6,223 bases of DNA from an uncultured delta proteobacterium (GTDB lineage: Bacteria; RBG-13-61-14; DRUE01), in assembly GCA_903930515.1 (NCBI GenBank), contig CAIYYW010000362.1, positions 1 through 6,223 of the forward strand, written 5' to 3'. This document shows, piece by piece, positions 4,311-6,223 of this stretch. A model generated the notes under the pieces. The model was given only the letters and a program-made list of their open reading frames with translations. It was not told the origin of the DNA and made no database searches. Each line of letters begins with the position of its first letter. Positions within the stretch are counted from its first letter, which is position 1. The translations under genes were made by a program, and so were the position numbers.

Positions 4311-4400
4311 TTATTTGGGTTTATGCCGATTAGCCTTGCGTTGCTTGCGGTATTTGTGCTTGTTGATCTTCTTCTTCCGCCATTTGATCACGCTTCCCAT
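4311..4400 (-). CDS. 29-residue AURKAIP1/COX24-domain (mS38/bS22-like) ribosomal peptide
   Basis: A 30-codon frame opens at an ATG at 4400 and ends in TAA at 4313-4311. The peptide starts MGSVIKWRKKKINKHKYRKQ and continues with RKANRHKPK. More than half of it is Lys, Arg or His. The MGSVIK start followed by R-K-K-x-x-x-K-H-K-Y-R-K matches the pattern of bacterial AURKAIP1/COX24-domain peptides, related to mitochondrial small-subunit protein mS38 and to bS22 of mycobacteria. In those systems the peptide binds rRNA of the 30S subunit near the decoding side. GGGAG sits seven bases before the ATG, and a promoter with a TATACT -10 lies about 46 bases upstream. It is the first gene of the minus-strand operon. 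Genes this short are easily missed; the family match is from memory of the motif, but start, Shine-Dalgarno and promoter agree. Confidence 0.88.
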   Translation of the reverse strand: MGSVIKWRKKKINKHKYRKQRKANRHKPK

Positions 4401-4659: not shown

Positions 4660-6096
4660 ATGAAGGGAAAAGTTGGAACGATAATTATCGTGGTGATCGC
4701 GTTACTGGGCGGGATTTTGGTCGGCCAGAGGATCGGCAAGCGCGGGACGGTTTTGAAATCCGGGAAGACCCTGGAGGTCAAGCTGACGGAGATCAGCCAG
4801 GAATTGGCGGAGTTGGAAGGGATGGCGAAGCCGGGGAGCAAGGGAGCGCTCCAGGAAGGCAAGCTATATAGCTTTAATTTGGACAAGGTTCCGGTGCTGG
4901 GCGAGGCCAAGGCCAAGGTTAAGATCGTGCTCTGGAGCGATTTCCAATGCCCGTTCTGCGAGCGGATGGAAAAGATGTTGGAGGAGATAGTCCGGGCGAA
5001 TCCGGATAAATACGCGCTGTATTTCAAGAACAAGGTAGTTCACGACACCGCGGCCCTAGAGCATGAGGCGGGCATTTCCGCGACCGCTCAGGGCAAATTC
5101 TGGGAACTGAACAACCTGTTCTTCCAGAACCGGGCGCAGATGCTCCAGGTGGCCGGGGAAGGGCCGGACAAGCTTCAGGCGAAGATTATGGAGTTTGCGG
5201 CGCAGGTCGGGATGGATGTGGACAAGTTGAAGGCGGACCTGGACAGCCATAAGAACCAGGCGCAGTTAAAGGCGGAAGACATTGAAGCCGGGGCGAACCA
5301 GATTATGAGCACCCCCTCGGTTTTTATTAACGGATATTTCTACGGGTATGACCCGGCGGTGCTCAAGACCAAGATTATTGAAGCCTCGGAAAAACCGGCC
5401 GTGGCTCAGGGGGAAGCGAAGCCCAAGACCGTGGGGATTGAGGCGACCCTGACGGAAATTGAAACGAAGATCCAGAATTTGAAAGACAATTTGAAGAGGC
5501 CGCGGGGAGGCGGCGGCGGCGGAGCAGGCGGCGAGGGTCCCAAGGGGCCGGAGCAGGGGAAGGAATACCCCTTTGATCTGGGGAGCGCGCCGGTATTGGG
5601 TCCCAAGGACGCCAAGGTCAAGGTGGTGATTTTCAGCGACTTCCAATGTCCGTATTGCGAGAAGATGGCCGGCTTGATGGAAGAGGTTCAGGGAAATTCT
5701 CCCAACCAGGTCGCGATTTATTTTAAAAATTTCGTAGTCCACGAGAAGGCTATTGTAGAGCACGATGCCGCAATGGCCGCGAATGCCCAGGGCAAGTTCT
5801 GGGAATACCATAACCTGGTATTCAAGAACCGGATGGAACTGACCAAGCTGGGCGGAGAGGGCGACACCCAATTGCGGCAAAAGCTGATTGACCTGGCGAA
5901 AGAGGCCAAGTTGAATGTCAACCAGTTCACCAAAGACTTGGACAGCCATGCCTACCAAAGCGTGATCAAGGATAATATCGCGGAGGGCAGGAAAGCGGGC
6001 GTGAGCGGCACTCCCAGCGTTTTTATCAACGGTTATTTTTACGGTTACAACCCGGCGGATATTAAGGCCAAGATTGAGGAGGAGAGCAAGAAGTGA
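4660..6096 (+). CDS. membrane-anchored protein with two DsbA-like thioredoxin domains
   Basis: The 478-residue protein begins with a short basic N-terminus and one hydrophobic segment (about 6-22), with no clear cleavage site, so it is probably anchored with its bulk outside the cytoplasm. A short charged helix (about 38-54) precedes domain 1 (about 68-240), which has SDFQCPFC with Cys97/Cys100 and the cis-proline loop STPSVFINGYF (Pro219). A linker (about 245-300), including a helix resembling the first (260-276) and a glycine run at 283-288, leads to domain 2 (about 301-472) with CPYC at 330-333 and GTPSVFINGYF (Pro452). The domains align without gaps at a 233-residue offset, and I count about 83 identities in 173 positions, a clear internal duplication. 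Both active sites are intact, so thiol oxidation or disulfide isomerisation is likely (DsbA/Thioredoxin_4 type). AAGGAGG lies nine bases before the ATG. The stop overlaps the next gene by four bases. Substrates and the redox partner are unknown. Confidence 0.93.
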   Translation: MKGKVGTIIIVVIALLGGILVGQRIGKRGTVLKSGKTLEVKLTEISQELAELEGMAKPGSKGALQEGKLYSFNLDKVPVLGEAKAKVKIVLWSDFQCPFCERMEKMLEEIVRANPDKYALYFKNKVVHDTAALEHEAGISATAQGKFWELNNLFFQNRAQMLQVAGEGPDKLQAKIMEFAAQVGMDVDKLKADLDSHKNQAQLKAEDIEAGANQIMSTPSVFINGYFYGYDPAVLKTKIIEASEKPAVAQGEAKPKTVGIEATLTEIETKIQNLKDNLKRPRGGGGGGAGGEGPKGPEQGKEYPFDLGSAPVLGPKDAKVKVVIFSDFQCPYCEKMAGLMEEVQGNSPNQVAIYFKNFVVHEKAIVEHDAAMAANAQGKFWEYHNLVFKNRMELTKLGGEGDTQLRQKLIDLAKEAKLNVNQFTKDLDSHAYQSVIKDNIAEGRKAGVSGTPSVFINGYFYGYNPADIKAKIEEESKK

Positions 6097-6223
6097 GCCG
6101 GGCGCGGATTTTTCTCGCCGCGGCCGGAATTTTTTGGGCGCTGTCCGGGTTCCGGGCTTGGGCTCAAGAGGCTGAAACGGCTCCGGCCCAAAAGGCTGAA
6201 ACGGCTCCGGCCCAAGAGGCTGA
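6093..6223 (+). CDS. secreted protein with Ala/Glu/Pro repeat, 3' end outside the window
   Basis: A GTG at 6093 overlaps the preceding TGA as GTGA and has GGAGGAG about nine bases upstream. The 43 complete codons encode a good signal peptide: basic MSRAR, the hydrophobic core IFLAAAGIFWALSGF, and a cleavage site AWA|Q after residue 24. The mature start is a repeat of the octapeptide A-Q-(E/K)-A-E-T-A-P. The coupled arrangement suggests an exported protein made with, and perhaps a client of, the disulfide oxidoreductase. No cysteine is visible in the part present. The mature domain lies outside the window, so no function is assigned. This could be a low-complexity spacer ahead of a folded domain. 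Confidence 0.75.
   Translation, partial: MSRARIFLAAAGIFWALSGFRAWAQEAETAPAQKAETAPAQEA
6162..6223 (+). repeat. 24-base in-frame tandem repeat
   Basis: Two full 24-base units (6162-6185 and 6186-6209) and the first 14 bases of a third (6210-6223) differ by single bases (GCT/GCC and GAG/AAG). Each unit encodes eight residues, A-Q-(E/K)-A-E-T-A-P, just after the predicted signal peptidase site. The array continues past the edge, so its copy number is unknown. Confidence 0.9.

Follow-up and report, generated by a model that had tools for sequence, protein, structure and literature searches.

A membrane-anchored DsbA-like protein with two catalytic domains, probably duplicated within one genus and a candidate thiol-disulfide foldase

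The window, by which we mean the whole stretch of 6,223 nucleotides analyzed here, carries a gene for a 478-residue protein in which two DsbA-like domains follow a predicted membrane anchor (Table 1). We conclude with high confidence that the ancestor of the genus, after its split from the other sampled family, underwent a tandem duplication covering the entire periplasmic part of a single-domain anchored protein, namely its stalk helix, linker and DsbA domain. The function of the product is a more tentative matter; at slightly less than even odds, we favor a two-headed foldase for thiol-disulfide exchange, structurally of the BdbD/ScsC type, which would be anchored in the inner membrane and face the periplasm. 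Duplication and foldase function taken together form the best overall explanation, to which we would assign a probability of about 0.5. The enzyme type is a known one, of which this protein is a clean variant specific to its lineage, and the architecture is not unique.

Profile matches, CxxC motifs and putative cis-prolines all point to membership of the DsbA-like thioredoxin family. The whole protein matches Thioredoxin_4 (7e-40) and DSBA (2e-27) in Pfam, its PF13462 (Thioredoxin_4) score of 137.3 bits lies above the curated cut-off, and in the genome profile scan each half separately exceeds the cut-off of 23.2. The initial annotation had credited both domains with a CxxC motif and a cis-proline, and these are indeed present, as CPFC with T218-P219 and as CPYC with T451-P452, the cis position being assigned by alignment. 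The two CPxC pairs (C97/C100 and C330/C333) account for all cysteines of the protein. The predicted anchor lacks a cysteine and with it a lipobox; the catalytic domains would face the periplasm. Two more specialized families do not accommodate the protein: the PDO model TIGR02187, whose cut-off is 185 bits across two fused Trx folds, matched 44 residues at 24.2 bits, and NF041057 (Rcas_1661 family thioredoxin-like (seleno)lipoprotein) gave 106.2 bits against an equivalog cut-off of 190, with the lipobox cysteine absent.

Table 1. Features of the two-domain gene and its downstream neighbor, in window coordinates. G001, genome of the same genus; G002, genome of another family of the same order.
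Feature	Position	Strand	Basis
Two-domain membrane-anchored DsbA-like gene	4660..6096	+	478 aa ORF; Pfam; full-length congener orthologue
Predicted membrane anchor, residues 4-23	4669..4728	+	Hydrophobic stretch; modelled helix 4-23; equivalents in G001 and G002
Stalk helix 1, residues 38-56, heptad pattern	4771..4827	+	Modelled helix
DsbA-like domain 1, residues 72-245	4873..5394	+	PF13462 at 4891-5346, 64 bits; pLDDT mostly >90
Active-site CPFC, C97-C100	4948..4959	+	Sequence; same motif in G001 domain 1
Thr218-Pro219, cis-Pro position	5311..5316	+	Alignment
Stalk helix 2, residues 260-279, duplicated helix, perfect heptad pattern	5437..5496	+	Modelled helix
Glycine-rich flexible linker, residues 283-294	5506..5541	+	pLDDT <50; shorter in G001
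DsbA-like domain 2, residues 305-478	5572..6093	+	PF13462 at 5590-6075, 79 bits; pLDDT >90; BdbD Z 23.1
Active-site CPYC, C330-C333	5647..5658	+	Sequence; also in G001 domain 2 and the single-domain G002 protein
Thr451-Pro452, cis-Pro position	6010..6015	+	Alignment
Downstream gene, 5' end, exported, probably barrel-like	6093..6223	+	Same neighbor in G001 and G002; weak PF13557/PF13505

The internal repeat is sharply defined. Self-comparison yields 93 identities at an offset of 233 against at most 27 at every other offset from 215 to 244, and the gapped local score between the halves is 493, against 34 +/- 5 (maximum 53) in 200 shuffles. The original description of two complete DsbA-like domains, related without gaps at an offset of 233 with about 48% identity, is borne out, residues 66-245 and 299-478 being identical at 87 of 180 ungapped positions (48.3%). 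The further claim that the duplicated unit takes in the preceding helix is likewise supported: the helix before each domain is truly repeated (38-54 and 260-276), at an offset of 222 and not 233. Hydrophobic residues mark the heptad positions of both helices (L38/L42/I45/L49/L52 in helix 1; I260/L264/I267/I271/L274/L278 in helix 2), with a heptad contrast that shuffling matched 69 times in 2000 for helix 1 and 0 times in 2000 for helix 2. The orthologue in the congener keeps both stalk helices as heptad repeats, matched by 5 and 1 of 2000 shuffles, respectively. Together with the order of anchor, helix, linker and domain in a single-domain relative, described below, the repeated helix indicates that the duplication took in the entire periplasmic region and left out the anchor.

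The phylum was sampled through three genomes, namely that of the window (G000), one from the same genus (G001) and one from another family of the same order (G002). The G001 orthologue has 472 residues and two domains, is 60% identical to the present protein, and carries CPFC followed by CPYC. An assembly artefact can be rejected because the congener encodes the same protein; moreover, the divergence of the active sites remarked upon at the outset proves to be old and stable, the identical pair recurring in G001. The G002 protein (L004 1492-2253) shares with the present one the anchor, a similar stalk helix, an EGxxYxFDL linker and a CPYC DsbA domain, in the same order, as well as the downstream gene. 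It differs in possessing one domain and in lacking two indels found in both halves of the duplicated form, a 10-residue insertion and a 2-residue deletion.

In a tree of 74 domains, both halves and their G001 counterparts form one clade (100/99), within which the domain 1 pair of G000 and G001 is supported at 100/100 and the domain 2 pair weakly, at 88/29; the single G002 domain is sister to all four halves (96/82). AU tests on clades picked after the tree was built disfavor trees in which G002 joins only domain 2 (p 0.032) or only domain 1 (p 0.0095). The four halves also share derived characters. The segment holding the 10-residue insertion is 20 residues long in all of them, against 10 in G002 and in 185 of 244 domains, and a length of exactly 20 is found in no other domain among the 244. 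The 2-residue deletion, giving a length of 21, is seen in 6 of the 244 and not in G002, and the motif NGYFYGY occurs in 4 of the 244, which are the four halves, and is absent from G002. Internal duplication, as first suggested, is thus upheld by domain phylogeny, the halves forming one clade with shared indels and not falling into distant ones. Tree, AU tests, indels and motif together place the duplication most likely after the split of the families and before that of the congeners. In view of the tree and of the indels common to the halves, we reject both a fusion of unrelated or distant DsbA genes and the import of a myxobacterial tandem gene. The stem leading to domain 1 (0.48) is longer than that leading to domain 2 (0.047), indicating that domain 1 has changed more. 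The single-domain form of G002 and the duplicated form of G000 and G001, lying in the same gene context, constitute a clean before/after pair, and the effect of a second covalent active site, be it a change from oxidase to isomerase or in substrate range, is consequently directly testable.

An AlphaFold2 model built from 53 aligned sequences reached a mean pLDDT of 87.7 and a pTM of 0.55; in this prediction the domains are well modelled, and their relative placement is undefined. The nearest solved fold is BdbD of Bacillus subtilis (PDB 3eu3), aligned over 174 residues with a Z of 23.1 and about 24% identity; BdbD has one catalytic domain and no duplication. It is followed by a Silicibacter thioredoxin-like protein, alpha-DsbA2, CcScsC, PmScsC, StScsC and BcfH (Z 20-21.7); the alignments of the structure search were single-domain only and matched no known two-domain arrangement. 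ScsC (Caulobacter 7rgv, Proteus 5idr/4xvw), BcfH and alpha-DsbA2 resemble the present protein in the DsbA fold, in Thr-cis-Pro and in a helical stalk before the domain, but they unite their sites by trimerising separate chains, whereas here duplication would bring the sites together. The ScsC-type trimerisation helix is longer than the present stalk helices, and the stalks are likened by their position before the domain, not by homology. PmScsC and CcScsC are trimeric isomerases whose N-terminal helices hold the trimer together (PMC5524982, PMC8900818), and PmScsC deprived of its N-terminal region loses isomerase activity and becomes a dithiol oxidase (PMC5524982). As the same work points out, a pair of catalytic domains with the thioredoxin fold is a feature of both DsbC and PDI (PMC5524982). 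PDI and PDO have two catalytic thioredoxin-fold sites per polypeptide, although they belong to other thioredoxin subfamilies and arrangements.

In the foldase that we favor, each catalytic domain would stand on its own heptad-repeat stalk, such that the two CPxC sites are kept near each other, and the paired sites would act on one substrate, folding or shuffling its disulfides in the manner of DsbC, ScsC and PDI. New disulfides would be supplied by a separate VKOR-DsbA fusion, and reductant possibly by CcdA-like proteins. We infer the redox activity of the sites, their proximity, the foldase or isomerase direction and the identity of the partners. The proposal draws on the retention of both sites and of Thr-cis-Pro in G000 and G001, on a fold closest to BdbD and then to the group of ScsC, alpha-DsbA2 and BcfH, and on the heptad stalk helices; a role on multi-disulfide partners, as the initial annotation imagined, is plausible. 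The foldase proposal has to contend with the facts that among solved structures an oxidase, BdbD, gives the best match, ahead of any isomerase, and that the related species G002 manages without a second domain. With respect to partners, all three genomes have a single VKOR match that shares its contig, and the length of its open frame, with a DsbA match, and in G000 the VKOR-DsbA fusion was confirmed by Pfam. DsbB had no match in G000, G001 or G002. As for a membrane reductant of the ScsB/DsbD type, the partner expected of an ScsC-type isomerase, the DsbD_TM matches fell in open frames of 243-312 aa, a length that recalls CcdA.

The same evidence can be read in favor of a two-site disulfide oxidase, with both domains of DsbA/BdbD type and re-oxidized by VKOR, in which duplication would raise the local dose or the substrate range. 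We regard this as possible and nearly as likely as the foldase. The closeness of the fold to BdbD, the presence of VKOR in every one of the three genomes and of DsbB in none, and the oxidase activity of the helix-less monomeric form of ScsC (PMC5524982) all accord with an oxidase, but the G000 VKOR has its own DsbA domain and so may need no separate partner, and the threonine before cis-Pro and the stalk helices recall ScsC-type isomerases. Far less probable is a relay, raised in the initial annotation, in which disulfides or electrons pass from one domain to the other, domain 1 being specialized. The conserved CPFC/CPYC difference and the longer stem of domain 1 could be taken as signs of such specialization, yet both dipeptides are ordinary among single-domain relatives, unequal rates require no relay, and the predicted structure has no confident interdomain contact.

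Gene context offers one further reading, in which the protein is the partner of the adjoining envelope protein and the pair works as a unit, for example by setting the redox state of a barrel-like protein or its cargo. In G000 and G001 the downstream gene begins at a GTG that overlaps the stop of the dsbA-like gene by 4 nt, and in G002 its start is found 8 nt further downstream. The pair is kept in both families; it was not seen outside the phylum among the genomes examined, which weakens this reading. So does the neighbor itself. The mature part of its product has zero cysteines, whereby it is ruled out as a disulfide substrate, and its AlphaFold model, built from three sequences, has a pLDDT of 29 and no usable fold. 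Because of that low value, the barrel assignment rests on weak outer-membrane barrel matches in Pfam (PF13557, E 3e-4, just below the cut-off; PF13505, E 0.004). We consider the partnership unlikely, if less so than the relay. The window ends within an Ala-Pro-Ala-Gln repeat of the downstream gene, and the gene carries on in contig G000:C42, the overlap of the two contigs being 52 nt, exact and itself repeat sequence. The contig break thus falls inside an Ala-Pro-Ala-Gln-(Glu/Lys) repeat (window 6160-6223 and G000:C42; L033, L036), of which the G001 and G002 homologues have no long version.

Open reading frames with 2, 3, 4, 6 and 8 DsbA domains are present among the named genomes and sampled relatives, mostly in Myxococcota, with some in Chloroflexota and one in a micrarchaeal MAG, a set biased by its selection for similarity to the two-domain query. 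A wider survey covered 145 genomes; PF13462 was found in 59 of them, and seven of these (G000, G001, G016, G030, G083, G094 and G129) have at least two copies per open frame, making tandem DsbA a minority but recurrent architecture. The early impression that two domains per chain are unusual is therefore only partly sustained: the architecture is indeed that of a minority, but Myxococcota frequently carry chains of 2-8 domains, and such chains turn up in other groups as well. The Myxococcota chains (for example L005, L043-L048 and L062) are similar in carrying several Thioredoxin_4 domains with CPxC per chain, but usually have 3-4 and up to 8 domains where the present protein has two. Their domains lie elsewhere in the tree, and in the present tree the G000/G001 protein is accordingly of separate origin from the other tandem chains.

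Individual chains vary considerably. L048 2635-7737 (+) holds 8 DsbA domains in a 1701-aa frame, and near-identical adjacent domains there suggest recent expansion. L128 (G129:C128 49302-53261, -) has 7 PF13462 copies in 1426 aa, L062 has 6 tandem domains, and several others (the L043-L047 group) have 4. Proteins of about 450 aa with two Thioredoxin_4 matches each also occur in the unrelated lineages G016 and G083 (L125 3015-4394, +; L126 2634-3959, +), the second match being more degenerate than the first. No description of tandem DsbA proteins, including the Myxococcota chains of up to 8 domains, was found in the open-access literature searched, and these long chains may be of more interest than the window's own protein. 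A broader but doubtful generalization is that tandem chains (2-8 domains) are prokaryotic PDI analogues that several phyla evolved independently, a covalent replacement for DsbC and ScsC dimers and trimers; the present protein, which has one stalk helix for each domain and a single-domain relative in the same gene context, would be the simplest datable case.

Several other loci deserve mention. In the window's genome, L123 802-2469 (-) on G000:C345 encodes a lipoprotein-like protein of 555 aa that combines GILT and DsbA-type segments (CPYG, CPFG) with a tail rich in Gly and Cys. Nearby lie genes for an SBF-type transporter, an ArsP-type permease, a CcdA-like protein and a small thioredoxin-like protein, and the group may be a metalloid-handling cluster. 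Within the window itself, hisH and hisB are separated (1275-2637, -) by genes for an EVE + HNH protein and an MNT-type nucleotidyltransferase, which resemble a small inserted cassette of the defence or toxin-antitoxin type. Upstream of the two-domain gene, a very basic ORF of 29 codons (4311-4400, -; MGSVIKWRKKKINKHKYRKQRKANRHKPK) has a product that we take to resemble the small ribosomal proteins of the AURKAIP1/COX24 type.
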